A stretch of DNA of 59,666 bases, taken from contig CACWQH010000027.1 in assembly GCA_902762955.1 (NCBI GenBank), positions 1 to 59,666 on the forward strand, in the 5' to 3' direction. The first letter of the stretch is position 1, and every line of letters begins with the position of its first letter. Source of the stretch: an uncultured Lachnospiraceae bacterium. Lineage in GTDB: Bacteria; Bacillota; Clostridia; Lachnospirales; Lachnospiraceae. The position numbers were made by a program, and so were the translations under genes. Below, one piece after another: positions 34,570 to 59,666 of the stretch. A model generated the notes under the pieces. The model had not been told where the DNA came from. It made no database searches and saw only the letters and a program-made list of their open reading frames with translations.

Positions 34570-35190
34570 TCAGTTAATAATTGCAATAACAAATGTATCT
34601 TTACCTGCTAAATCTATATCCTCCGGATTACCTCTGTATGCAACCCAATAAATGCTCGAATTACTTTCATATTCTGCAACGCCATCAAATTTTTCCATGA
34701 AAATCATCCTCTCATCTTCAGCAGCAAACTTATCTCTTGTAGAATCTATCACAACATCTACTCTGTCAGGATAGACTGCATCCATCCATTCCTTTGATTC
34801 AGGGATATAAAAAATATCATATATTATGGCATCACCCTCTGTAGTGCTTTGAACAACCCTGATATAGGCTTCCTCTTTGTCTTCATATTTCTTCATGAAT
34901 TCTTCATAGAGATTATCATTATAGACCTTCGCTGCTCCTATAACAAAGCAGCCATCATTTATCGCATCATCTACGCTGTAATCCTCACCTAACTCATCAA
35001 TATTGCTTATTCCTCTGTTAGCACCATAAACCTCATACCAAGATTTATATTCCTCTTCTGTATCAGCATCTGTCGTTTCTTTTGCCTCTGTTGTCCCATC
35101 TTTTTTATCCCTGTTCTTACCGCATCCCACTAAAGCAAAGATACATAAAAGAAGCAATATTAAGCTTTTATTTTTTAATATTTTTTTCAT
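34570..35190 (-). CDS. Hypothetical lipoprotein
   Basis: A 206-residue protein with a lipoprotein signal (KSLILLLLCIFALVGC) and a short charged linker. The mature part is acidic and rich in aromatic residues (EYKSWYEVYGANRG, YESNSSIYWVAYRG). No known family was recognised. It should be anchored on the outer face of the membrane. SD AGGAG, transcribed alone or at the head of the zinc-ribbon/DUF362 set. Confidence 0.65.
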   Translation of the reverse strand: MKKILKNKSLILLLLCIFALVGCGKNRDKKDGTTEAKETTDADTEEEYKSWYEVYGANRGISNIDELGEDYSVDDAINDGCFVIGAAKVYNDNLYEEFMKKYEDKEEAYIRVVQSTTEGDAIIYDIFYIPESKEWMDAVYPDRVDVVIDSTRDKFAAEDERMIFMEKFDGVAEYESNSSIYWVAYRGNPEDIDLAGKDTFVIAIIN

Positions 35191-35254
35191 CGTTTATCTC
35201 CTAAAAAAATTTACTACCTAAATTTTATCATTTTTTCGGTAGTAAAACAATAAT

Positions 35255-35749
35255 TTATATCAGTTCATCTGCCCAAGCCTCAATTAATCTGTCCAGACTC
35301 CACGCTGCATTTGCAGGGCTTGTAGACGGCATAACCACAGCTTTAATCCCTGTAATCGGTTCAATATATTTGATATATAACCTCTCGGCAGTTTTTCCGT
35401 TTACAATTATTTTTTTAATTGACGAATCCTTTAAAATTTTGCTTATGTCATTAGCCTTCGCATTTTTAATGCTTGCATCCGATGAACCCGTAATCTCACA
35501 TTCCGAAATCACATCCCAAAGTGCAAGATGATTCTTGAGTATAAGACTTTTCTTATCCTCGATTGTTTCAGGAATTTTCTCGTCAAATACATCTGCAACC
35601 ACCTTCCAGAATCTGTTCTGCGGATGTCCGTAAAAGAATTTTACCTCTCTTGACTTAACGGACGGAAAGCTTCCCAATATCAGTATTTGTGAGTTCTCAT
35701 CATAAAGCGGAGGAAACGGATGTTTAACCTTTTTTGAATCTTCTGCCAT
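35255..35749 (-). CDS. DNA-deoxyinosine glycosylase (uracil-DNA glycosylase family)
   Basis: A 164-residue base-excision repair enzyme of the family that removes hypoxanthine or uracil from DNA. Seen: the motif 1 region ILILGSFPSVKSREVKFFYGHPQNRFWK near residue 18, read as ILGSFPSVKSRE and FFYGHPQNRFWK, the ALWDVISECEITGSSD stretch, and the C-terminal MPSTSPANAAW motif. These match proteins annotated as DNA-deoxyinosine glycosylase. Short single-domain length is typical. Confidence 0.85.
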   Translation of the reverse strand: MAEDSKKVKHPFPPLYDENSQILILGSFPSVKSREVKFFYGHPQNRFWKVVADVFDEKIPETIEDKKSLILKNHLALWDVISECEITGSSDASIKNAKANDISKILKDSSIKKIIVNGKTAERLYIKYIEPITGIKAVVMPSTSPANAAWSLDRLIEAWADELI

Positions 35750-35769
35750 AATTGATTCCTTTATAAATT

Positions 35770-36201
35770 TTATCCTATAACCTTTTCAATCTGCTCTTTT
35801 GAAACTCCTGTCTTACTTGAAATCTGCTCAACAGACATTTCAGCATCATGATAAAGCACATTGATACGTACAATGGTTTCAATATCTAAATTTTTTTCAG
35901 CAGTATTGTTTGACTCAGCTTCTGTCGGTTTATCATCTTTCTCTTTCTCGGGTTGATTTTCGGTTTGCTTTTCAGGTTGCTTATCTTCTTTTTCTTCAGC
36001 TGCTTGCTCTTTCTCTGCAGCAACCTTTTTGGATGCCTCATACTGCAAAATAAAAGCATTCAATTCACCCATTTTTTCTTCACTGTTCTTTTTTGATATT
36101 TTATTTTTTTTAATTAAATTCTTTGCAGTTATAAATGCAATTACAAAAATTACAATCATGTAAATAATAAAAAGATTTGAACCGCTTATTGCTAAAAACA
36201 T
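35770..36201 (-). CDS. Membrane-anchored protein with C-terminal helix-turn-helix-like segment
   Basis: A 143-residue protein: one membrane helix at about 5-27 (LFIIYMIVIFVIAFITA), a Lys/Glu/Gln-rich low-complexity coiled region (about 55-100), and a C-terminal VEQISSKTGVSKEQIEKVIG that resembles a short helix-turn-helix. It sits between a GNAT gene and the glycosylase with the same orientation. It may tether DNA or a protein to the membrane, but that is a guess. Confidence 0.6.
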   Translation of the reverse strand: MFLAISGSNLFIIYMIVIFVIAFITAKNLIKKNKISKKNSEEKMGELNAFILQYEASKKVAAEKEQAAEEKEDKQPEKQTENQPEKEKDDKPTEAESNNTAEKNLDIETIVRINVLYHDAEMSVEQISSKTGVSKEQIEKVIG

Positions 36202-36230
36202 ATCTTACCTCCTAAAATGCTTTGTTAAAA

Positions 36231-36824
36231 CTACAATTTTTTATAACACAAACTATATCTTGTCACTCCATTATCAGCAGTCACACTATTATATAGCTCA
36301 CAGCCAAAATGCTGATACATTTCTGCATACTCTTTCATATCAGTATCAAATAAAAGTGTCAGCCCTTTCGCATCAGCCATACTTTTTGCAAATTTTATAA
36401 GCTCTGTCGCAACTCCTTTGCCCTGACACTCTTTGTCTACACAAACCATAAGTGCATCAATATGTCTTTTCTTTGCATACTGCTTATTGGAATTACCTAT
36501 CTGCTTGGCAAATTTTAAAAGACTTTTTATCCTTGAATATTCCATCTTTGTGTACATTTTTAAAATCATTTTTATCTGTGGCATAATCGGTTTTTTCACC
36601 GAGTCCTCAAGCCCGATGAAGCCTGTCATATCCTCATTTGCATATAATTCACCCGATTGATAAACGTAGTCAACATAGTACGACATATACTCCATGACAT
36701 CATCCTTACGTTCAGACACCGAACCCCAGTTATGAAACAACTCATTTGTAACAAATGCTTCGCCTATAATCCTTTTTATGCCATCTAATTTTTCCTGTGA
36801 AATGTTTTCCACTTTAGAAACCAA
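36231..36824 (-). CDS. GNAT-family N-acetyltransferase
   Basis: A 197-residue acetyltransferase. The acetyl-CoA loop is CVDKECQGKGVATELIKFA near residue 127 (QxxGxG/A), followed by the FDTDMKEYAEMYQHFGCEL end of the fold. The acceptor substrate is unknown. The start is a TTG at 36824, chosen because GGGAGG lies eight bases upstream and no ATG fits. Confidence 0.82.
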   Translation of the reverse strand: MVSKVENISQEKLDGIKRIIGEAFVTNELFHNWGSVSERKDDVMEYMSYYVDYVYQSGELYANEDMTGFIGLEDSVKKPIMPQIKMILKMYTKMEYSRIKSLLKFAKQIGNSNKQYAKKRHIDALMVCVDKECQGKGVATELIKFAKSMADAKGLTLLFDTDMKEYAEMYQHFGCELYNSVTADNGVTRYSLCYKKL

Positions 36825-36941
36825 ATTATCTGCCTCCCAAGATTTATAATCTGTCAGTAAAATTTATAACTACCATACCACAAAACTGCATTTTTGAAAA
36901 GAAACATTAGCTGTTTGAAAGTATAAATCAATGCATTTTTC

Positions 36942-36970
36942 TTGACAACCAAAATAATCGGCTATAATAT
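36942..36970 (+). promoter_or_regulatory. Sigma-A promoter of the AI-2E-family gene
   Basis: A perfect -35 TTGACA at 36942-36947 and a -10 that reads TAATAT at 36965-36970 with 17 bp between (a TATAAT two bases earlier gives 15 bp). Confidence 0.65.
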
Positions 36971-37007
36971 TTAATATACTGTTCAATAATATAAAAGGAG
37001 TTTAGTA

Positions 37008-38261
37008 ATGGCCGCTAATTCAAATAAAAAAAATAATAATACTCAAAATAGCAATTTAGAAAGTAATAATTCAGAAGACACTATTAATAAAAAAATCACC
37101 TCAACAGACAATAATATTGAAACTTCCTTAAAAGGTAACACCCACAAGGTAAAGCGATACATTCCTATTTGTATTTGTGTCCTTGTTATGTTTATAATCT
37201 TCAAATACTGGGATAATGCCGTTCACTTTATAGGCCTTTTCTTAAGCGCATCATCGGGACTTATTATAGGAATGATTATAGCTTTCCTGGTCAATATTAT
37301 TATGACCTCATATGAAAAGGGACTTTCCAAACTCTTTAAAGGCAAGATAAAGCATGGTGTACTAAGAGCAATAGGGCTTACTACCTCCCTGCTTACATTA
37401 ATTCTGATTTTAGTCGGTATAATCAATTTTATTATACCGGAACTCATAAACAGCATTTCTCTTATGATTAAATCATTGAGCGATAATCTTCCGAAGATGC
37501 TTAACGAATTAAAAACTAACAAATATATCGGTAAATATGCTGTGACTCTTCTTAATTCCATGCCATCCTCGGAAAACATTGAAAGCACAGTTCAGGGACT
37601 GGGAAGCTTCGTGATAAATGGTGCAAGCGGTGCCATGAGCCTTCTGGTCAGTTCAGCGGGAGCATTAATTTCAGTTATTGCCAATCTATTTATAGGAATT
37701 TTCTTTTCCATATATATTCTGGTTGATAAAGAAAAGCTTTCCAGACAATGTACCGGTCTCATTAAGACCTATGTTCCTGCCAGCGAAAAAGTCCTTTCAT
37801 TGATTAGCTTGCTTGGAACCAACTTCCGTAACTTTATAGTTGCACAGGCAACCGATGCATGTATTTTAGGCGGATTATGTATTATTGGAATGCTTATTCT
37901 ACAGCTTCCTTATGCCGTAACATCCGGTGTAATCGTTGCATTTTTTGCATTGATTCCTGTCATCGGTGCCTTTCTTGGTATGGGTATCTCTGCATTTTTC
38001 ATACTCATGGTATCACCGGTAAAAGCACTTATTTTCCTTATTTTCATCATCACTCTGCAACAGATTGACAATAACATCATCTATCCTCGTGTTGTCGGAA
38101 ACAGAGTTGATCTTCCGGGAATGTGGGTACTCGCCGCGGTCACAGTATTTGGCGGTTTATTTGGAATCGTCGGAATTATGTGCAGTGTACCTGTAACCGC
38201 AACCGTATACAAGCTAATAAAAGATGATTATAGAAAAAGAGCCAACAAAGAAGAAACATAG
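37008..38261 (+). CDS. AI-2E-family permease (first copy)
   Basis: A 417-residue integral membrane protein of the AI-2E/PerM family. A polar Asn/Lys/Ser-rich N-terminus (about 45 residues) precedes about seven membrane segments. The family signatures QQIDNNIIYPRVVG and LPGMWVLAAVTVFGGLFGIVG are clear. Members have been linked to autoinducer-2 export or Na+/H+ antiport; the substrate here is unknown. A second paralogue lies at 42446. SD AAGGAG. Confidence 0.88.
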   Translation: MAANSNKKNNNTQNSNLESNNSEDTINKKITSTDNNIETSLKGNTHKVKRYIPICICVLVMFIIFKYWDNAVHFIGLFLSASSGLIIGMIIAFLVNIIMTSYEKGLSKLFKGKIKHGVLRAIGLTTSLLTLILILVGIINFIIPELINSISLMIKSLSDNLPKMLNELKTNKYIGKYAVTLLNSMPSSENIESTVQGLGSFVINGASGAMSLLVSSAGALISVIANLFIGIFFSIYILVDKEKLSRQCTGLIKTYVPASEKVLSLISLLGTNFRNFIVAQATDACILGGLCIIGMLILQLPYAVTSGVIVAFFALIPVIGAFLGMGISAFFILMVSPVKALIFLIFIITLQQIDNNIIYPRVVGNRVDLPGMWVLAAVTVFGGLFGIVGIMCSVPVTATVYKLIKDDYRKRANKEET

Positions 38262-38351
38262 CTTCCAGCACCCTTAACTACCAAAAAACTCGGATTTACA
38301 GACTTTTTTCATAGTCTCTAATATCCAATCCACTATATACTTCTGTAACTT

Positions 38352-38618
38352 TTGTTACCAGTTTTTTCATTCTACGTTTATATTTTCTTTAGCTGGTAAC
38401 AAATCTTGCTTTTTACTATTTTTGTTACCGGTTTGACCTATTCTATTGCTTGGATTTTCCTTTATCTGGTAACAAATCTTGCTTTTTTGATGTTTTTGTT
38501 ACCGGTTTACCCTATTCTATTGCTTGGATTTTCCTTACCGGTTTACCCTATTCTATTGCTTGGATTTTCCTTTATCCGGTAACAAATCTTGCTTTTTTGA
38601 TGTTTTTATTACCGGTTT
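38352..38618. repeat. Composite 36/38-bp tandem repeat array
   Basis: Two blocks alternate. Block A (36 bp) begins ACCGGTTTACCCTATTC; block B (about 38 bp) contains GGTAACAAATCTTGC and ends TTTTTGTT. The order is B-A-B-A-A-B-A from a diverged left end; phases between ACC marks are 70, 74, 36 and 74 bp. Each B block makes a hairpin, GGTAACAAA with TTTGTTACC. It fills most of the gap from 38262 to 38717. Confidence 0.8.
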
Positions 38619-38646
38619 ACCCTCATTCGCTATTTTCATATAAAAA

Positions 38647-38686
38647 ATACGGACTAAATCAGTTCTATATCAGATTTAGTCCGTAT
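38647..38686 (-). terminator. Intrinsic terminator of leuS
   Basis: A perfect 14-bp stem (ATACGGACTAAATC with its complement) with a 12-nt loop, followed on the minus strand by six Ts. Confidence 0.88.
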
Positions 38687-38717
38687 AAGGTTTACATAAT
38701 GTTATTTCACTACAAAA

Positions 38718-41147
38718 TTATTTCGCCACTATATTAACAATCTTATTAGGTACATAGATTTCCTTGATTACATTAAGACCGGCGAGTCTGTCGCCAAGGG
38801 CAGCCTTTGCTTTTTCAATTACAACATCCTTCGCATCGTCTACGCCAATCATAACAGTAACTCTGGTCTTGCCGTTAATCTGAACAGCAATTTCCTTTTC
38901 ATCATCCTTCATGGCATCCTCGGAATAAGTTGGCCAGCTCTGGTGGAATACAGAATCGGTTCCGCCAAGTTCCTCCCAAAGCTCTTCACCGATGTGTGGT
39001 GCAAACGGTGCTATAAGAAGTGCCATTGTCTTAAGAGTTTCTTTATCAACACCTGTTGTCTTGGTAAGCTCAACGCACTTATTATTTGCTTCCATAAATG
39101 CGGAAATTACTGTATTTAAGCTGAATTGTTCAAGACGAGTTGTAACATCATATACCAGCTTGTTACGAAGCTTTACGAGCTCCTTGGTCTCTGTAGCATC
39201 CTTATCCTTGTTAGCCATAACCATGTTGTAGAATCTGTTAATGAAACGGTATATACCTTCCATACCGCTGTCATCCCAGATAGAATCAAGCTCAGGCGGG
39301 CCGATGAAAAGCTCGTATAAACGAAGTGAATCACAGCCGTAATCATTTACCATATCATCAGGTGAAACGATATTTCCGAGAGACTTACTCATCTAGGTTG
39401 CTGCGCCTGTTTCCTTATCTCTACCGCAGACCATACCCTGATTGAAGAGCTTCTTGAACGGCTCATCAAAATCAACGACTCCGATATCATTTAAGAACTT
39501 AGTGTAAAATCTTGAGTAAAGCAAGTGAAGAACCGCATGCTCTACACCACCGATATACATATCTACAGGAAGATACTTATCTGCCTTTTCTCTGTTTACA
39601 AGCTCTTTATCATTCTTATTATCTACATAACGTAAGAAATACCAGGATGATCCTGCCCATTGAGGCATTGTATTGGTCTCACGCTTTGCAGGCTTACCAC
39701 AGCAAGGGCAAGTTGTATTTACCCATGAATCAATTGCTGCAAGCGGTGACTCACCTGTACCGGTCGGCTCGTACTTTTCCACATCAGGCAAAAGTACAGG
39801 AAGCTGTTCTTCAGGCACTGCCACTGCACCGCAGTCAGGACAGTGAATAATCGGAATCGGCTCACCCCAGTATCTCTGACGTGAGAACACCCAGTCACGA
39901 AGCTTATAATTAACTGTCTTCTTGCCGTAGCCAAGCTTTTCTATCATCTCCGGTGCTTCCTTTTTAAGTACGGAGGATTCCATACCGTTCCAGTCACCTG
40001 AATTAATCATTGTTCCTGAAGCCTCTGTATAAGCCTCAGTCATATTTTCTATCTCCTTGCCGTCCTTTGCAATTACCTGGATTATAGGTAAATCAAATTT
40101 CTTGGCAAACTCAAAGTCTCTGTCATCATGTGCAGGAACACACATGATTGCTCCTGTACCGTAATCAGCAAGTACGTAATCCGATAACCATATAGGAGTC
40201 TTCTTACCGTTTAAAGGATTAATCGCATAGCTTCCGGTAAATACACCGGTCTTGTCCTTATCCTGAAGTCTGTCTACATTTGACTTCATAGATGCCTCAT
40301 AAATGTACTTGTCGACCGCTTCTTTAGTTTCAGGAGTTGAAAGTGAAGCTGCAAGCTCATGCTCAGGTGCAAGTACCATAAATGTAGCGCCCCAGAGAGT
40401 ATCCGGACGTGTAGTATAGACAGTGATTACATCATCCTTGCCGTCTACCTTAAAATCAACCTCTGCACCATAGGATTTTCCTATCCAGTCGGTCTGCATC
40501 TTCTTAACCTTCTCAGGCCAGTCAAGCTTGTCAAGGTCAGCTAATAATCTTTCAGCGTAGGCAGTTATCTTAAGCATCCACTGACGGATGTTTTTCTTGG
40601 TAACCTCAGAATGACATCTCTCACACTTACCGTTTACAACCTCTTCATTTGCAAGACCTGTCTTACAGGAAGGACACCAGTTAATCGGCATCTCCTTTTC
40701 ATAAGCAAGACCTTTTTTAAACATCTGAACAAAAATCCACTGTGTCCATTTATAGTAATCAGGATCTGTAGTGTTTACCTCTCTGCCCCAATCATATATA
40801 GCAGCGATCTGATTAATCTGTCTTTTGATATTCTTTATATTTTCAGCTGTTGATATAGATGGATGGATACCATGCTCTATCGCATAGTTCTCTGCAGGAA
40901 GACCAAATGCATCCCATCCCATTGGATGAATAAGATAATAATTGTGCATCATCTTATATCTGCTCCAGACATCAGAAATAACATAGCCTCTCCAGTGTCC
41001 TACATGAAGACCGTTTCCTGACGGATAAGGGAACATATCAAGACAGTAATATTTCTCCTTCTTGCCGTCATCCACATTTACAGGATTTTCCTCCCATTTC
41101 TTATTCCATTTTCCTTCAATCAGCTTGTGGTTGTAGCTTCCAGCCAT
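38718..41147 (-). pseudogene. leuS: Leucyl-tRNA synthetase interrupted by an in-frame TAG at KMSKS
   Basis: Class I synthetase that charges tRNA-Leu. The frame encodes a complete enzyme of about 809 codons: HVGH near residue 47 as the HIGH motif, the CP1 editing domain with its TTRPDTLWG, a zinc-like CPSC...[14 protein letters not shown], and the C-terminal anticodon-binding domain. Codon 585 is TAG (39393-39395); the sequence reads ...ETGAAT-stop-MSKSLGN, so the stop replaces the first Lys of KMSKS. A single A-to-T change from AAG explains it. The next codon is ATG, so re-initiation could give a 224-residue C-terminal piece, although no SD is visible. No frameshift or other damage is present, which points to a very recent mutation, a base error or suppression. 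Confidence 0.85.
39393..39395 (-). other. Premature TAG codon in leuS followed by ATG
   Basis: On the minus strand the codons are GCA ACC TAG ATG AGT AAG TCT. The upstream open frame (39393-41147) codes for 584 residues and the downstream one (38718-39392) for 224. TAG is used as an ordinary stop elsewhere in the window, for example at 21961 and at 27962. Confidence 0.95.
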
Positions 41148-41198
41148 AACTTCATTTCCTCCAAAACTTTTAAATATTTAGTAATTATATCAAAACAT

Positions 41199-41224
41199 GA
41201 TACAAGGCAAATATGCCTTGTATC
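41199..41224 (-). terminator. Hairpin terminator of the DUF4250 gene
   Basis: A perfect 11-bp stem (GATACAAGGCA with its complement) and a 4-nt loop between the DUF4250 gene and leuS, followed on the minus strand by ATGTTTTG. Confidence 0.65.
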
Positions 41225-41238
41225 AATAATTTTATATA

Positions 41239-41424
41239 TTATATAAACTTATTTAACTCAACATTATAAGTATAACCTACGCTGTCAAGCTTTTTAACAA
41301 TCTCATCCTTTGATACATCAAACTGACTGCATAAGCTGTCCAAATCAATCCCGTCATCCCTAAGTCTCGTATTGACGAAGCTAAGCAGCATAATCGCATC
41401 CTTCGGTAAGCTTTCAAGTGCCAT
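41239..41424 (-). CDS. DUF4250 protein
   Basis: A 61-residue protein matching the small DUF4250 family (LPKDAIMLLSFVNTRLRD, then LCSQFDVSKDEIVKKLDSVGY). It looks like a compact helix-turn-helix-type fold. It begins one base after the CbiT-like gene, with SD GAGG inside that gene's end, so the two are coupled. Function unknown. Confidence 0.8.
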   Translation of the reverse strand: MALESLPKDAIMLLSFVNTRLRDDGIDLDSLCSQFDVSKDEIVKKLDSVGYTYNVELNKFI

Positions 41425-41425
41425 A

Positions 41426-42328
41426 TTAAAGTACCTCGCCGGTTATAAGCCAAGGAGACGGCTGTGTCACCAGCATGCTCTTTCTGTCGGTTTTTGAAAC
41501 GGTAATCTGGGTAACCTCAAGATTACTTATGTTATACTTTTCAAATAAATCCTTGATACCCGAAAGCACATTAAACTCCAAGGTATATAATACAAATTTC
41601 ATCTTAGGATTCTTCTCAAGAAGTCTTACTATATCCTCCTCAAGATGCTTGTTTGCAACTATAAATGAAAGTCTCGGAACCGGTATCTTAGCCATATTTT
41701 CAGGTCCCAAATCAGAGATAATCTGAACATTGTGTACACCGAATTTCTTGACATTATCCTCCATGGTTTCCTTGGCACCCCGGTCATTTTCCACACAGAT
41801 TATCGTACCGTCACCGGCAACAAATGCAGCCTCTATAGCGATACTTTCCGCATCTACAAGGCATATGGTATCCTGTGCATCTACATCCAGCATACTCATA
41901 ATAACGGCTCTTATTTCATTTCCTACATACTTTATTGTACCCTTGGAAAACATCTCATTTTTCATACCGATACGATAGGACTCACGAGTCTTTTCATTGA
42001 GTACAAATATAACTGTCGGCTCTGTAATCTTGTGATTGATGGCTTCCTTAATCTTGCATTTTTTAACAAGCGCATTTACCTCGATACCGGTTGAATACCA
42101 CATATCAAGCTCACCAAAGCCAATCTCCCATAATTCATAAAACAAATCCTCATGGGTTTCATCTGCAAATATTAAAACTCTCTTATTGGTTTCAACTACC
42201 GGAACAACATTTTTCATCTTACCACAGATATCAAGAAGCTTTATCTTTTCCGGTCTTACCTCCATTTTCTGTGCAAAATAACCCATCCACTCTAAAATTT
42301 GATTGGTGCTGTAACATCCCTTAGCCAT
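41426..42328 (-). CDS. Degenerate CbiE/CbiT-like (precorrin methyltransferase-like) protein
   Basis: A 300-residue protein that aligns by eye with the end of CbiE plus all of CbiT, the precorrin-6 methyltransferases of cobalamin synthesis. Shared features are the CbiE-type end (YELWEIGFGELDMWYS), the KGTIKYVGNEIRAVIMS join, ENDRGAKETMEDNVKKFGVHNV, and the final SPWLITG. The SAM-binding motif I, normally DIGAGTGSVSIE, here reads LVDAESIAIEAA and has lost its glycines, so methyl transfer is doubtful. No other cobalamin gene is in the window. It probably has a new role, together with DUF4250. Confidence 0.7.
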   Translation of the reverse strand: MAKGCYSTNQILEWMGYFAQKMEVRPEKIKLLDICGKMKNVVPVVETNKRVLIFADETHEDLFYELWEIGFGELDMWYSTGIEVNALVKKCKIKEAINHKITEPTVIFVLNEKTRESYRIGMKNEMFSKGTIKYVGNEIRAVIMSMLDVDAQDTICLVDAESIAIEAAFVAGDGTIICVENDRGAKETMEDNVKKFGVHNVQIISDLGPENMAKIPVPRLSFIVANKHLEEDIVRLLEKNPKMKFVLYTLEFNVLSGIKDLFEKYNISNLEVTQITVSKTDRKSMLVTQPSPWLITGEVL

Positions 42329-42445
42329 AACTCTACCTCCCTATCTATGAGTCCTTTTCATTTTTGCTTTATATTTTTTTACAATTTCTATTATCTATTC
42401 CTATAAATTTCATTTATTGTATTATTTGTCTATGTTATCTTCTTA

Positions 42446-43924
42446 CTATTTTTCTTCTGTCTTCTTTTCTTCTTTTTCCTTTTTTTCGGCTTCTTTTTCT
42501 TCTAATTTCTTTTCTTCCTTCTCTCTTTTTTCAGCCTCTTTTTCTTCCTTCTCTTCTAACTTCTTTTCCTCTTTTTCCTTCTTTTCAGCCTCTATATCGG
42601 ATATCTTTTCTTCCTTAACAAACCATCTCTTGGTTATAGGTCCTTTATTTCTATGCTTGATGGTTCTTCTTGTATCATTTTTATCCTTATAAATTGCCTC
42701 TCCTGTTTCCAGATCAAAGCCCTTCAAAAGATGATAATCCTCTGTATCGGAAGAAAGATTCTTACTTCTTAAACCATCACGAAGAAGTACAGCAATAAGC
42801 GCATAAATACATGCAAATACAGGTACACCGAGTACCATTCCGGCTACGCCAAACAAATCGCCTCCGACAAGAATTGCAACAAGAACCCACATACCCGAAA
42901 GACCAGTTGAATCTCCGAGGATAAGCGGTCCAAGGATATTTCCGTCGAACTGCTGAAGTACCAATACAAAAATTACAAAGATTATGAAGTACATCGGATC
43001 GTCCATAAGTGCCAAAAGTGCACCCGGAATCGCTCCGATAAACGGACCGAAGAACGGTATGATATTGGTCACACCGACGATAACACTTATGAGCACTGCA
43101 TACTTCATTCCGATTGCAGCGGTAAAGATAAAGCACAAAATTCCTATAATAATTGAATCAAGAATCTTACCGTTTATAAATCCGCCAAATACAAGATTGG
43201 CATATGAAAGACCTTCAAGTATTTTATTTCCTGTCTTCTTAGAGAAGAACAAATATACAAATTTTTTAAATTGGGCAACAAGTGTTTCCTTGCTGTTAAG
43301 AAGATAAACCGCAACTATAATTCCAACTAAAAAGTTAAATATTGCCTTTACGCCTAAAACTATGCCTGATGAAATATTAACAACTATAGTGTCCATATTA
43401 GGCATAACTTTTTCCTGGAAAATAGTAAGGATATTTTTCTCCAGATAGTTTACAACATCTGTAAACTTATTCTCCAAGAACTCATTCTTGGCAAAAACCT
43501 TGTCCACCCAGTTTTGAAGACTGTCAAGATAACCCGGCATAGAATCCACCAGATCCTTAAGACTCTCATATATTCGTGGGATAACCAGCCACAGGAATAT
43601 CGTAATAAGTCCTATAAAAATCGCTATGGTAAGCGCAACTGAAAATGCCTTTACTTTTTTATAGGCCTTATCATAATCCAATTTTTTGGAAATCTTACTT
43701 ACGATGATTGCAAGTCCTTTTCTGATATAATTCATAATTGGACTTAGCAAAAATGCAATAACTATACCAATTACAAAGGGAGTAAGCGCAGAAAAAATCG
43801 CACCAAAGATACCAAATATTCCTCTCCATCCCTTGATAATCTGGCTGAACAATATAGCTATACATAATGATACGGTGAGAACCACACCAAGTCTAAGATA
43901 ATTTTTATTCCATCTGTTTCCCAT
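42446..43924 (-). CDS. AI-2E-family permease (second copy) with charged tail
   Basis: A 492-residue membrane protein of the AI-2E/PerM family, with the signatures LQQFDGNILGPLILGDSTGL and GMWVLVAILVGGDLFGVAGM. It differs from the copy at 37008 in ending with about 50 residues made almost only of Lys and Glu (EEKEAEKKEKEEKK units), a predicted long charged helix on the cytoplasmic side. The tail is encoded by repetitive purine-rich DNA. SD AGAGGT. Transcribed alone. Confidence 0.88.
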   Translation of the reverse strand: MGNRWNKNYLRLGVVLTVSLCIAILFSQIIKGWRGIFGIFGAIFSALTPFVIGIVIAFLLSPIMNYIRKGLAIIVSKISKKLDYDKAYKKVKAFSVALTIAIFIGLITIFLWLVIPRIYESLKDLVDSMPGYLDSLQNWVDKVFAKNEFLENKFTDVVNYLEKNILTIFQEKVMPNMDTIVVNISSGIVLGVKAIFNFLVGIIVAVYLLNSKETLVAQFKKFVYLFFSKKTGNKILEGLSYANLVFGGFINGKILDSIIIGILCFIFTAAIGMKYAVLISVIVGVTNIIPFFGPFIGAIPGALLALMDDPMYFIIFVIFVLVLQQFDGNILGPLILGDSTGLSGMWVLVAILVGGDLFGVAGMVLGVPVFACIYALIAVLLRDGLRSKNLSSDTEDYHLLKGFDLETGEAIYKDKNDTRRTIKHRNKGPITKRWFVKEEKISDIEAEKKEKEEKKLEEKEEKEAEKREKEEKKLEEKEAEKKEKEEKKTEEK

Positions 43925-43951
43925 TTGTTACCTCTTTGAAATTTTTAAGTT

Positions 43952-44110
43952 AATGTCAACTTCGTTGCCGCTTGGTTTTCTCTTATACTCTATATCTCGC
44001 AAGCACGCATCTTCGATGCTCGCCTATCTGCTTCGCAGATGGCTTGCTCGATAACTCGCCGCGAAAACTCAAATGCCGACTTCGTCGGCGCTTGGTTTTC
44101 GCTTATACTC
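43952..44110. repeat. 159-bp structured repeat element with 39-bp direct repeats
   Basis: Two 39-bp direct repeats (43952-43990 and 44072-44110, 34/39 identical, 120 bp apart) each hold a hairpin with a TTC loop. Between them lie two more TTC-loop hairpins (GCATC-TTC-GATGC, ATCTGC-TTC-GCAGAT) enclosed by an outer stem GCAAGC/GCTTGC (43999-44004, 44042-44047). It lies in the gap 43925-44276 and has no supported gene. Confidence 0.75.
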
Positions 44111-44180
44111 GTTATTATACCATAAATAGCAAAAATGTGAACAAGCTTTGCAAGATTTTCACAATTAATTTTCTTTATCG

Positions 44181-44209
44181 TTGACACGAGTAAAAATATT
44201 GTCTAAAAT
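44181..44209 (+). promoter_or_regulatory. Sigma-A promoter of the AAA+ ATPase gene
   Basis: A perfect -35 TTGACA at 44181-44186, a 17-bp spacer and a -10 TAAAAT at 44204-44209. Confidence 0.75.
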
Positions 44210-44276
44210 AGTAATATAGTTTTTGATTACACATTTATCAAAACAAAAATTTTACATTCTGATGAGGAGACAGTTT

Positions 44277-45596
44277 ATGTATAGAGATGTCATAGGTAAC
44301 CTTTTAGCCTGGTACGAGGAAGGGCATAACGGTATATTGTATGTAAAGGGTGCTTACGGAGTTGGCAAAACCTGGACAGTAAAGGATTTTGCAAAGGCTT
44401 ATTATAATGATTTAAAATCTGTGGATTGTTACAAAAATACAGCATTTAAAAACATTATAACGCGTAAGATTGATAAGGATAACGATGAAGATGATGTCTC
44501 TATTGAAACAAAGATTTCGGATGTTGACTTTATACTTGAGCAGCATTTCGGAACGAATGATTTTTCAGACTGTCTTTTAATATTTGATGAGATACAAAAT
44601 ATACCTGATGCTGCCGAGTTTTTCCTCGAATACTCTAAGGCTCATCCGGATTATAAGCTGTGTCTTATCTCTTCTTCCATGAATGTTACGGAATTTGAAT
44701 ATACACATATGGATATCTTTAATATAATCCGTATGCGTCCTATGACCTTCGAAGAATTTATGATTGCCAATCAGGCAAGTGACCTGCTTTCACTTATTGA
44801 AAATGACAAGAACAAAAAGCTTAAAAAGGATGATGAGGAGAAGGTTAAATCCCTTTTACGTGACTATATGCTGACAGGCGGTATGCCGGGTGTTGTAAAA
44901 GCATTTTTGAAAAATCATGATTATTCGGTTATAAAACCCGAACAGCAAAAGCTCCTTGATGAATATGAAAAACGTATAAGAAAATCCTATACATATGCTC
45001 TTTCACAAAGAGCAGTTCGTATATGGTCAAGTATTCCTACTCAACTTACACATGATAACAAAAAATTCATGTATCGTTTTGTGAATGAAAATGCGCGTGC
45101 AAGAGAATATTACAATTCAACCCAATGTCTGCTTGATCTTGGATTTGCAAGAAAGCTTCCACGTGTTAAGGAGTGCATACTTCCGCTTGAAGAACACATA
45201 GATGATAAATCCTTTGAGCTTTTTATGATAGACCACGGACTGCTTAGAACCGCTCTTAAACTCGATGTAAATGAAGAAATTACTCTTCTCGATATATTTA
45301 CCGAAGCAAACGGTGCCGTAGCCGAGCAATATCTATTCCAGGAGCTTAGCCATAAAGTTGGATTTTTATACTACTGGATATCCGGTGCCACAGCAAGAGT
45401 TCCTTTCGTATATGAAAGCGAGGACGCTCCCGTACCGGTAGATATCAGATTTACAGAAAATAAAAAAGCACAAAACATAAAATCTTTTAGAGAAAAGAAC
45501 AAAAACACCGAGTTTTCTCTCAAGGTTTCCCTTGAACAGGTAGGACTCACCGATAAAGTACTTAACGTACCTGCATACGGAATCCACTGCTTATAA
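44277..45596 (+). CDS. AAA+ ATPase of the DUF4143-type family
   Basis: A 439-residue ATP-binding protein. Walker A: GAYGVGKTWTVKDF near residue 24; Walker B: LLIFDEIQNIPDA near 100; a sensor-like LCLISSSMN; then MRPMTFEEFM and the DUF4143-like C-terminus (DIRFTENKKAQNIKSFREKN). Such proteins are common in gut anaerobes and their function is unproven. The last part resembles a nuclease-like fold in relatives. The ATG at 44277 is chosen for its GAGGAGA and promoter; the earlier TTG frame start has neither. Transcribed alone with a terminator. Confidence 0.85.
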   Translation: MYRDVIGNLLAWYEEGHNGILYVKGAYGVGKTWTVKDFAKAYYNDLKSVDCYKNTAFKNIITRKIDKDNDEDDVSIETKISDVDFILEQHFGTNDFSDCLLIFDEIQNIPDAAEFFLEYSKAHPDYKLCLISSSMNVTEFEYTHMDIFNIIRMRPMTFEEFMIANQASDLLSLIENDKNKKLKKDDEEKVKSLLRDYMLTGGMPGVVKAFLKNHDYSVIKPEQQKLLDEYEKRIRKSYTYALSQRAVRIWSSIPTQLTHDNKKFMYRFVNENARAREYYNSTQCLLDLGFARKLPRVKECILPLEEHIDDKSFELFMIDHGLLRTALKLDVNEEITLLDIFTEANGAVAEQYLFQELSHKVGFLYYWISGATARVPFVYESEDAPVPVDIRFTENKKAQNIKSFREKNKNTEFSLKVSLEQVGLTDKVLNVPAYGIHCL

Positions 45597-45620
45597 AAAA
45601 GAGGCTAAAAGCCTCTTTTT
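45595..45620. terminator. Bidirectional intrinsic terminator
   Basis: An 11-bp perfect stem (AAAAAAGAGGC with its complement), a 4-nt loop and T-runs on both strands between the ATPase gene and the convergent HD-domain gene. Confidence 0.88.
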
Positions 45621-45625
45621 TTTGT

Positions 45626-46213
45626 TTAATTAAGTTCATCCAGCGTCTTTGCAAATGACGGAATAAATTCTCTCACAAAGTCCTTTACTTCAGGGAGTTC
45701 ATTGCTTAATTTTTCAACCGCATATCCGATTGTTTCTTTAGCCTTTAAAAACTCTCTGTTGCCGGTTTTTTCTTCTTCCATACATTTTATCAATGCAGAA
45801 AGCTTATCAGCCGCCTTGACAAGCTTCCACTCATATTCCTTATCAGGTGCCTTAAAAAATAAATCTTCGTAAGCCTCCCTCATATCCTCCGGAAGCTGAC
45901 CGAGAAGCTTTCTGTTGGCTCTTTCTTCTATGGTCTTATATGCCTCCTTTATATCCTGATTATAATACTTTATAGGTGTCGGCATATCTCCGGTTATAAT
46001 CTCGGAAGCATCATGGTAAAGTGCCGTAACAGCTGCATAATCCGCATCCAGCTTTTTATCAAATCTTACATTTCCGATAACACAAAGCGCATGTGCAATC
46101 ATGCTTACATCAAGAGAATGTTCCGAAAGATTCTCCTCCCTTGTATTGCGCATAAGTGCCCAGCGGTTAATATATTTCATCCTGGCTATCGTAGCAAAAA
46201 AATTGTATTCCAT
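45626..46213 (-). CDS. HD-domain 5'-deoxynucleotidase (YfbR-like)
   Basis: A 195-residue HD hydrolase that dephosphorylates deoxynucleoside monophosphates. Metal ligands are visible: NLSEHSLDVSMIAHAL, ALYHDASEIITGDMPTPIKYY and VKAADKLSALIKC. The start at 46213 (MEYNFF) follows GGAG; the frame extends a further 16 codons upstream into the palindrome but no SD supports that. The product may join dut in control of dNTP pools. Confidence 0.88.
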   Translation of the reverse strand: MEYNFFATIARMKYINRWALMRNTREENLSEHSLDVSMIAHALCVIGNVRFDKKLDADYAAVTALYHDASEIITGDMPTPIKYYNQDIKEAYKTIEERANRKLLGQLPEDMREAYEDLFFKAPDKEYEWKLVKAADKLSALIKCMEEEKTGNREFLKAKETIGYAVEKLSNELPEVKDFVREFIPSFAKTLDELN

Positions 46214-46244
46214 ATCTTTTCTCCATAAAGTTATATATGACACA

Positions 46245-46336
46245 GGAAAGACACCCGGCATACTTTTAGGTGCAAAGCAAATCGTGAGCGACAGCGAGAT
46301 TTGCGTGTACCTAAAAGTATGCCGTGGTGTCTTTCC
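46245..46336. repeat. 92-nt long palindrome between ftsH and the HD-domain gene
   Basis: A 27-bp inverted repeat (46245-46271 with 46309-46336, one unpaired T) plus inner arms CAAATC/GATTTG and a loop GTGAGCGACAGCGA. It ends 10 bases from the ftsH stop. It can act as a terminator, but the stem is far longer than needed. Confidence 0.75.
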
Positions 46337-46346
46337 CTATGTTGCA

Positions 46347-48284
46347 TTACTCACTTACAAGTAAATCTTCACCGTCTTCATTTTTAGTCTTAAGCTTTGT
46401 TCCCTGATATTTTTCAAAAAGCTCAACAAACTCTTTACCGGAAAGGTTTTCCTTTTCCATAAGCACCTTTGCAATGGCATCAAGAGTAGTCATGTTCTTT
46501 TTAAGAAGCTTAAGTGCCTTTTCATAAGATGCCTTTATCAGGTTCTTAACCTCATTGTCTACCTTGGTCTCTGTTTCGGCAGAACAGTTAAGCACTCTTC
46601 TTCTGTCAAGATATTCACCGGTTACACCTTCGAGCTGAACCATACCGAATTTATCTGACATACCATACATGGTTATCATGGTTCTGGCAACATTTGTAGC
46701 CTTTTCTATATCATTTGAAGCACCTGTGGTTATAGAATCAAATTTAAGCTCCTCTGCTGCTCGTCCTGCAAGAGCTATAACAATCTCTTCCTCAAGCTCC
46801 TTTTTGGTCTCAAGCTGCTTTTCCTCTTCAGGGACCTGCCATACATATCCAAGTGCTCCGTTGGTTCTCGGAACTATGGTTATACGCTGAACAGGAAGGG
46901 TATTTTTTTGAAGTGCTGCTGCCAGAGCATGACCTGTCTCATGATATGCAACAATTTCCTTTTCCTTCTTGCTAAGAAGCTTTTCTTTCTTTTCCTTACC
47001 TGCAAATACTATCTCTATAGCTGCGATTAGATCCTTTTGGGATACATATTCCCTTCCGTTTCTTACAGCAAGTAATGCACCTTCATTTATAATATTGGCA
47101 AGATCTGCTCCCACCGCACCTGAAGTTGCGAGAGCAAGCTCCTTGAAATCAACAGATTCATCCAGCTTAACATTTTTGGTATGAACCTTTAAGGTGTCTA
47201 TTCTACCCTTCATATCAGGTTTGGAAACTATAATTCTTCTATCAAATCTTCCCGGACGAAGAAGTGCCTTATCCAAAACCTCCGGTCTGTTTGTAGCAGC
47301 AAGAATTATTATACCCTTTGAGGTATCAAAGCCATCCATCTCGGAAAGGAGCTGGTTAAGTGTCTGCTCTCTTTCGGAATCTCCACCCGAATATCTGGTA
47401 TCACGGCTTCGTCCTATGGCATCTATCTCATCAATAAATATTATACAAGGCGCCATGGTATTGGCCTTTTTAAATAACTCTCTTACTCTTGATGCACCAA
47501 GTCCGACATACATTTCTACAAATTCAGAACCTGAAATTGAGAAAAACGGAACCTTGGCTTCACCGGCAATTGCCTTTGCAAGTAAAGTCTTACCTGTTCC
47601 GGGAGGGCCGACTAAAAGAGCACCACGAGGAAGCTTCGCACCAATCTCGATATACTTTTCAGGTTTCTCAAGAAAATCAACAATTTCAGTAAGAGACTCC
47701 TTAGCCTCCTCCTGACCGGCAACATCCGCAAAGGTTACCCCTGTTTCCTTTTCAACATACATCTTTGCATTATTCTTATTTACACCCATAATACCGCCGT
47801 TTTTAGACGCTGTACGCATTATAAGAAGCATAAGGACATAAAATGCCGCAATCATGATGCCGTAGGAAATAATGGTTGAAACGATTGCATTTTGTCCTTC
47901 TTCAACCTCTTCAAACTCCACCTTTGCTTCTTCGAGTCTGTCGACAATCCTATAGTCGGGAGTTCTGATTACGGTATAAGTTGTTTCATGAACCGAATCT
48001 TCACTTTCCTTTGGCTTAATAACTATTTCATCATTGTAGATTTTGACACTTTTTACCTTATCGTCTTCAAGCATCTGCAGGAATTCATCATAGGTTATTT
48101 CTTCCTTGCCCATAGCCTTAAATTTGCTGTATCCCTGCCAAAATAAAAGAGCCATAAAAATAGAAGCAACCAAAAGTATAATCTGCATTGATGGTTTTTT
48201 CTTATTGTTGTTATTATTTGAATTATTGCCGTTATTTCTATTATCTTTATTATCCTGGTTATTGTTTTGATTATTGTTATCCAT
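46347..48284 (-). CDS. ftsH: ATP-dependent zinc metalloprotease FtsH
   Basis: Membrane AAA+ protease of 645 residues that degrades misfolded membrane and regulatory proteins. Seen: an Asn-rich cytosolic start, a first membrane helix (about 30-47), an extracytoplasmic domain, a second helix (YGIMIAAFYVLMLLIM), Walker A GPPGTGKT near 225, Walker B FIDEIDAIG, SRH, and the zinc site HETGH near 446. The start MDNNNQ at 48284 follows GGAG; 20 further upstream codons lack an SD. Confidence 0.97.
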   Translation of the reverse strand: MDNNNQNNNQDNKDNRNNGNNSNNNNNKKKPSMQIILLVASIFMALLFWQGYSKFKAMGKEEITYDEFLQMLEDDKVKSVKIYNDEIVIKPKESEDSVHETTYTVIRTPDYRIVDRLEEAKVEFEEVEEGQNAIVSTIISYGIMIAAFYVLMLLIMRTASKNGGIMGVNKNNAKMYVEKETGVTFADVAGQEEAKESLTEIVDFLEKPEKYIEIGAKLPRGALLVGPPGTGKTLLAKAIAGEAKVPFFSISGSEFVEMYVGLGASRVRELFKKANTMAPCIIFIDEIDAIGRSRDTRYSGGDSEREQTLNQLLSEMDGFDTSKGIIILAATNRPEVLDKALLRPGRFDRRIIVSKPDMKGRIDTLKVHTKNVKLDESVDFKELALATSGAVGADLANIINEGALLAVRNGREYVSQKDLIAAIEIVFAGKEKKEKLLSKKEKEIVAYHETGHALAAALQKNTLPVQRITIVPRTNGALGYVWQVPEEEKQLETKKELEEEIVIALAGRAAEELKFDSITTGASNDIEKATNVARTMITMYGMSDKFGMVQLEGVTGEYLDRRRVLNCSAETETKVDNEVKNLIKASYEKALKLLKKNMTTLDAIAKVLMEKENLSGKEFVELFEKYQGTKLKTKNEDGEDLLVSE

Positions 48285-48323
48285 AGTTATTCTCCATAAC
48301 TTATAGTGTATAGCCTTTAAAAC

Positions 48324-48366
48324 ATTAAGGGCTATGTACATCAAGCATAATGTACAAGCCCTTAAT
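48324..48366 (-). terminator. Terminator-like hairpin after glyA
   Basis: A 17-bp stem with one bulge (48324-48341 with 48350-48366) between glyA and ftsH, followed on the minus strand by GTTTTAAAG. It probably reduces read-through into ftsH. Confidence 0.55.
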
Positions 48367-48383
48367 ATAATAATCCTATTATC

Positions 48384-49619
48384 TTACTTATAAAGAGGAT
48401 ACTTATCAGTAATGCTCTTTACAAGACTCATGGCCTTGTCATTATCCTTGTCAATAACTGCAGCCTTAATGGCATCAGCTATTACTATCATGTCATCTTC
48501 CTTTGCGCCTCTTGTTGTAATAGCAGGTGTACCAAGTCTGATACCGCTTGTTACAAATGGTGACTTAGGATCATTTGGTACTGTGTTCTTATTTGCAGTT
48601 ATATGTACCGAATCAAGAAGCTTCTCAACCTCTTTTCCTGTCATATCAAGGTTCTGTAAATCCACCAGCATAAGGTGGTTATCCGTACCGCCTGAAACTA
48701 TATTGAAGCCTCTTTCCATAAGTGCCTTTGCAAGTACCTCGGCATTTTTCTTAACCTGTGCCATATATGCCTTATATTCATCTGATAAAGCTTCCTTAAA
48801 GCATACTGCCTTACCTGCGATAACATGCATCAAAGGTCCGCCCTGAATTCCAGGGAATACTGCCTTATTGAAGTTATACTTTTCATTTACCTCATTGCTT
48901 GAAAGAATGAGTCCTCCACGAGGTCCTCTTAAGGTCTTGTGAGTAGTGGTTGTAGTAACATGAGCATATGGGATTGGGCTCTCATGAAGTCCTGCTGCAA
49001 CAAGACCTGCTATATGTGCCATGTCCACCATAAGCACTGCTCCCACTTCATCAGCAATCTCTCTGAAACGCTTAAAATCAATTGCTCTTGCATAGGCAGA
49101 TGCACCTGCCACGATAAGCTTTGGCTTGCACTCCTTTGCTATTCTTAACACCTCATCATAATCTATAAAGCCGTCATCATTTACTCCGTAAGGTACTACA
49201 TTAAAATACTTACCTGACATATTAACAGGTGAACCGTGAGTAAGATGTCCGCCATGTGCAAGGTTCATTCCCATAAATGTATCGCCCGGCTCCATGATTG
49301 CGAAAAATACAGCCATATTTGCCTGAGCACCTGAATGAGGCTGAACATTGGCATATTCGCAGCCAAATAATTCCTTAGCTCTCTCTCTTGCAAGATCCTC
49401 AACTACATCAACATGCTCACATCCGCCATAATATCTCTTTCCCGGATATCCTTCTGCATACTTATTAGTAAGCGGACTTCCCATAGCAGCCATAACTGCC
49501 TTTGAAACAATGTTCTCTGATGCTATAAGCTCGATATTATCATTTTGTCTTTTAATCTCCGCTGTCATGGCATCAGCAACTTCGGAATCAACCTTAACAA
49601 TCTCGTCAAAATCGTACAT
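48384..49619 (-). CDS. glyA: Serine hydroxymethyltransferase
   Basis: PLP enzyme of 411 residues that interconverts serine and glycine and loads tetrahydrofolate with one-carbon units. Seen: [14 protein letters not shown] near the start, [14 protein letters not shown], and the PLP lysine in [14 protein letters not shown] near residue 227. Length is typical. SD GGAGG. It is monocistronic here and supplies the one-carbon carrier that folC polyglutamylates. Confidence 0.97.
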
Positions 49620-59486: not shown

Positions 59487-59666
59487 AATTCCGGTTTGTC
59501 GCATAGAGTGGGTATCCGAACCACTGCTTATATATGACTTCACGCTATTTTAGGTTTCCTAAAGCGGAAAGTATATGAAAAGGCTGATACACAACGTGCC
59601 ATCGATTTGTTAAATCAATAAGCTCGAATCCTTTATAGGTGCTAAAAATCGAAAACTCGCTACGCT
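59487..59666. other. Gene-free end of the window
   Basis: No gene or tRNA was recognised. The last 25 bases (CTAAAAATCGAAAACTCGCTACGCT) resemble the apex side of the 284-bp palindrome (AAAAATCGATAAACTCGCTTC), so the window may end inside another such element. Confidence 0.4.

Follow-up and report, generated by a model that had tools for sequence, protein, structure and literature searches.

A leucyl-tRNA synthetase (LeuRS) gene with a stop codon inside its catalytic motif raises the question of whether the cell makes this enzyme in an unusual way or whether the stop belongs to one assembly rather than to the organism. The window, which is the whole stretch of 59,666 nucleotides analysed here, comes from contig 27 of an 81-contig draft assembly that totals 2.65 Mb and has a completeness of 88.94%. 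Among named records, the nearest are metagenome-assembled genomes (MAGs) of Lachnospiraceae; one of them, from roe deer rumen, is 90% identical at the protein level across residues 1-584 of the gene product. The source assembly is probably a MAG as well.

The leuS gene is read on the minus strand from position 41147 to 38718 and comprises 809 codons and a final stop. Its sole internal stop is a TAG at codon 585 (39393-39395, minus strand), and the translation around it runs KETGAAT, stop, MSKSLGNIVSPDD. The TAG takes the place of the first Lys of the KMSKS motif and abuts the motif's own ATG. A profile search with TIGR00396 matches the interrupted frame end to end (query 1-843) at 1049.3 bits, above the curated cut-off of 548.4 expected of a bacterial LeuRS. 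The uninterrupted frame with KMSKS, also expected of such an enzyme, is not present, as a TAG replaces the first Lys while the rest of the frame is open. The initial annotation had described a full-length leuS frame with a TAG at this Lys followed by ATG, and both the translation and the profile match confirm that description. The open frame 5' of the TAG (39393-41147, minus strand) encodes 584 amino acids and covers the N-terminal portion, including the editing domain. Solved LeuRS chains align with its residues 4-574, and chains of the LeuRS editing domain with residues at about 227-412. The open frame 3' of the TAG (38718-39392, minus strand) encodes 224 amino acids and starts at the Met of MSKS. 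In its full-length match, gene size and conserved motifs, the protein resembles other bacterial LeuRS. It differs from them in the one in-frame TAG and in a private, radical D121G change at codon 121 (40785-40787, minus strand). Among the 89 relatives with a residue at this codon, Asp is found in 78, Glu in 6, Ser in 3, Thr in 2 and Gly in none.

The position of the stop needs no special cause, since a stop can be reached by one base change from 279 of the 808 sense codons of leuS, and among the possible single-base changes in the gene 5.0% (364/7272) create one. The ATG behind the TAG is likewise unsurprising, because its Met belongs to the KMSKS motif. Chance, together with a conserved Met, therefore largely accounts for the conspicuous arrangement of a stop at KMSKS and a start right behind it.

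Relatives were sampled at one genome per species. No stop is found in any relative's leuS listed from 60 relatives searched, 58 of which have a match over the cut-off. A family draw of 299 genomes, including the source assembly (287 over the cut-off), shows no other leuS stop among the matches listed. Thus, the TAG is private to the source assembly among the leuS matches listed. Column 585 was counted over the 90 of 100 loci that passed a filter of 50% identity and at least 600 residues; 86 of these have Lys, one has Arg and three have a gap. Lys also occupies the first KMSKS position in all 19 loci with a readable motif among 20 whole-genome loci. The three closest copies, in G023, G024 and G019, are 99.5%, 96.3% and 95.1% identical to this leuS at the DNA level, and all three have Lys at 585. 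At the protein level, identity to the G023 enzyme is 99.6%. Stop-containing TIGR00396 matches in G012, G031, G039 and G056 are weak (about 88-106 bits) and are taken for other genes and not for leuS. When open reading frames of at least 100 amino acids were compared between the window (roughly 1-20 kb and 31-59 kb) and stretches of three relatives, leuS was the only within-gene break; the other hits were judged, by position only, to be antisense frames or differences in start or end sites.

We consider the TAG to be a consensus error or a strain-mixture artefact in one assembly, with a probability of about two in three. The cause would then lie in the assembly and not in the cell. In this reading, an ordinary single-copy Lachnospiraceae leuS appears broken by a private single-base lesion, an artefact confined to one region of a draft genome that is probably a MAG. 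D121G, which is equally private, probably belongs to the same class of artefact, and the living population would make a normal full-length LeuRS. As written, leuS should be lethal, since the gene is conserved, no second copy is assembled, no tRNA with a CTA anticodon is called, the best PylS match is below its cut-off, and release factor RF1 is present. Nonsense errors and lesions are known from draft genomes, and the leuS of this assembly resembles them: the change is private and affects a single base, and the gene is otherwise intact, as are its close relatives. The stop-free leuS of the relatives listed and the Lys in the three closest copies favor an artefact, as does the observation that three of the six leuS changes private to the source assembly alter the protein, compared with none of the six on the G023 side. 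On the other hand, the consensus is good elsewhere, with only two private differences in 11.6 kb of the surrounding block and few private residues in ValRS (none in MetRS), so a random error would need to have hit or clustered in leuS by chance.

Of the five options that the initial annotation had offered, a base or consensus error and a very recent private lesion remain likely. As for the others, a second leuS and a PylS match above its cut-off were not found in the assembly, no CTA anticodon was found among the called tRNAs, and reinitiation is unsupported. Rather than a new way of making LeuRS, the stop most likely reflects either an error in one assembly or a dead-end variant confined to it. 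A TAG that was real and fixed would mean that one mutation had split an essential synthetase at its catalytic loop, or that the enzyme persisted through leaky readthrough. The case also cautions against building a mechanism on one private stop seen in a single draft genome before reads or another genome support it.

A block of about 14.5 kb (34600-49050), which holds leuS together with ftsH-like and glyA-like genes, is nearly identical to the corresponding DNA of G023, another species of the genus, with 21 differences in 14,066 aligned positions; its boundaries were set post hoc, at the points where differences become frequent. Most compared stretches outside it are about 79-90% identical to G023, and the block is apparently the product of a recent exchange between species. 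leuS, with 2,430 positions, contains twelve of the differences; the remaining 11,636 positions contain nine, of which three share a single codon next to the end of an alignment. With a density of differences from the closest copy about six times that of its flanks, leuS holds a local cluster of private changes. Polarisation of the block differences with G024 and G019 assigns six leuS changes to the source assembly (three silent, A652T, D121G and the stop) and six to G023, all silent; one of the latter, at 39291, is shared with G024 and is not cleanly polarised. Outside leuS, the block has two changes private to the source assembly, one silent and one intergenic, and seven assigned to G023, of which those at 44887, at 48819 and in codon 38244-38246 change the protein. 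The density of private changes is thus 6 in 2,430 positions in leuS versus 2 in 11,636 in the rest of the block. On the source side, leuS carries some damaging-looking changes, which the neighboring genes lack. The gene also seems to have its own history within the block. The six silent differences on the G023 side suggest a separate recombination history for leuS, which errors would not explain.

The quality of the consensus was also assessed in related enzymes. In leave-one-out comparisons, the source assembly has two private residues in ValRS (P716S and E878D; 13 genomes, with a truncated G022 ValRS stretch omitted), none in MetRS (14 genomes) and, among 16 genomes, D121G plus the stop in LeuRS. 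In these enzymes, private residues of the other genomes number 0 to 41 and increase with distance. A count of two is not unusual; it is the kind of change and the existence of a 99.5% identical copy that stand out. The consensus is not poor everywhere. A scan for nonsense changes in 458,572 sampled bases gave 67 raw candidates, and 30 of them, including leuS, were left after dropping 37 that overlap other frames. Domain checks of five of the 29 others showed separate neighboring genes in four cases and a duplication within an acetyltransferase gene in the fifth; for the remaining 24, the distance to the next ATG was the sole criterion. On these grounds, no other clear nonsense-broken gene was found in the sampled bases. 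The duplication accounts for the TAG candidate at L205:17661, which is not a simple nonsense change. In this acetyltransferase gene (L205:17269-18138), the two copies of a repeated segment (GGDSALEPEIYIF / GEDSALEPEIYIF) are separated by the TAG, apparently through partial duplication of the 3' part.

The stop and D121G could instead form a real, recent null allele carried by a sub-population of cells and tolerated for the time being thanks to an intact leuS that was left unassembled or is present in a coexisting strain. This account is clearly less probable; we give it about one chance in five, the highest among the alternatives. The assembly is only 88.94% complete, and the equal numbers of protein-changing and silent private changes in leuS look like relaxed constraint. 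The location of leuS inside a recently exchanged block is also consistent with such an allele, and its higher divergence suggests that leuS itself may have been exchanged separately. However, searches of the assembly with bacterial and archaeal LeuRS models found only this leuS and partial matches elsewhere; the latter are other intact frames, read as paralogues of the ValRS, IleRS or MetRS type. The second leuS that the initial annotation had proposed to look for was therefore not found in the assembly, and no extra intact leuS is seen among the matches listed for 60 relatives. Moreover, the block appears to have replaced the orthologous segment in place and not to have added a copy, since G023, G024 and G019 keep the same gene order around it.

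A working two-piece LeuRS is very improbable. Ribosomes would stop at the TAG and restart at the adjacent ATG, and the 584- and 224-residue chains would assemble into an enzyme. The contact between the TAG and the next in-frame ATG makes reinitiation physically possible. The LeuRS of Aquifex aeolicus also has its break shortly before KMSKS. This natural enzyme consists of two subunits and provides a precedent, showing that a two-chain LeuRS can work (PMC3436685, citing Xu 2002). The likeness lies in the building of LeuRS from two chains; by contrast, the gene analysed here consists of a single frame interrupted by a private stop, it has no visible second start signal, and its split is not conserved. 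The PDB chains matched by the N-terminal frame include some named 'subunit alpha', and passages of PMC3834818 and PMC11580382 contain nothing on a LeuRS split. The second gene of an Aquifex-type enzyme would have its own start signal, whereas the best Shine-Dalgarno match before the internal ATG, AGG, is 3 nt long and lies 13 nt upstream. Of the 20 starts of open reading frames examined in the window, including that of leuS itself, 19 have a match of 4-8 nt, although a few of these matches are poorly placed. The ATG is the motif's own Met and no new start. The 50 nt before the TAG are identical to those in G023 and G019 and differ by one base from G024, and nothing suggests that leuS has been adapted for production in two pieces. 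The split is also not conserved among related genomes, the source assembly being alone among the leuS matches listed. Furthermore, neither chain would contain the first Lys of KMSKS, a residue that 86 of 90 relatives share. The termination-reinitiation option of the initial annotation thus finds no supporting signal. The fuller version, in which the TAG is real and fixed, the cell lives on a two-chain LeuRS made by stop and restart at the KMSKS loop, and D121G accompanies the split, is the least credible of all.

Amber suppression, in which a tRNA would decode the TAG and allow synthesis of full-length LeuRS, perhaps in small amounts, is very improbable too. Because the tRNA set of the assembly is incomplete, a suppressor could be missing from it: no tRNA for Trp or Ala is called, and the sole Ile tRNA seen carries an insert in its T-loop. 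A search with RF00005 gave 54 matches. No CTA anticodon is among the ARAGORN calls from the window and 24 loci covering these matches, in an assembly that is itself incomplete; the initial annotation had advised this search for suppressors. ARAGORN left five RF00005 matches uncalled. Two of them, a 110-nt gene on C14 and C45:4721, exceed the gathering score; the others are the end of a tmRNA on C7 and two hits that score about 14 bits. PylS, also named for checking, has a best match of 18.9 bits in the assembly against a cut-off of 178.15, which argues against pyrrolysine decoding.

The two higher-scoring uncalled genes were rejected as suppressors. The 110-nt RNA at C14:58103-58212 (L168:14104-14213) has intact acceptor, D and T arms and a fold z-score of -6.0, and it lacks a normal anticodon arm. 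It is common to G024 and G019, two species whose leuS is stop-free, and was not found in the other 34 genomes of that search, including G023. It adjoins rtcB and a DUF2828/DUF7788 gene, and its match to the Rfam YrlA family is sub-threshold (18.9 bits; gathering score 69). Taken together, these features make it look like a YrlA-like Y RNA. The tRNA at C45:4721-4859 (L141:822-960) has the anticodon UAU (Ile) and a T-loop insert of about 50 nt, and no further Ile tRNA is called in the assembly. A stretch of this insert (TCGGTCCGTGCTAAACGCTTGCCACCGG) resembles sequence just downstream of the G019 copy of the 110-nt tRNA-like gene.

Reassignment of UAG is rejected, since TAG is in normal stop use and RF1 is intact (prfA, 529.2 bits). 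In the 458,572 sampled bases, TAG ends 67 of 284 non-overlapping open reading frames of at least 200 amino acids, and within the window it ends 14 of 35; the leuS TAG is counted in both. The genetic code therefore looks standard, and the earlier statement that TAG stops other genes here and is not reassigned is borne out.

Two genes of the AI-2E transporter family flank leuS on both sides (37008-38261 and 42446-43924 of the window). A direct-repeat array with units of 74 and 110 nt (38350-38628) lies between leuS and an AI-2E transporter gene. Short dispersed repeats occur at 1-106, 43990-44123, 46242-46341 and 59566-59666, the first and last at the contig ends, and copies of them are scattered over the contigs of related genomes.
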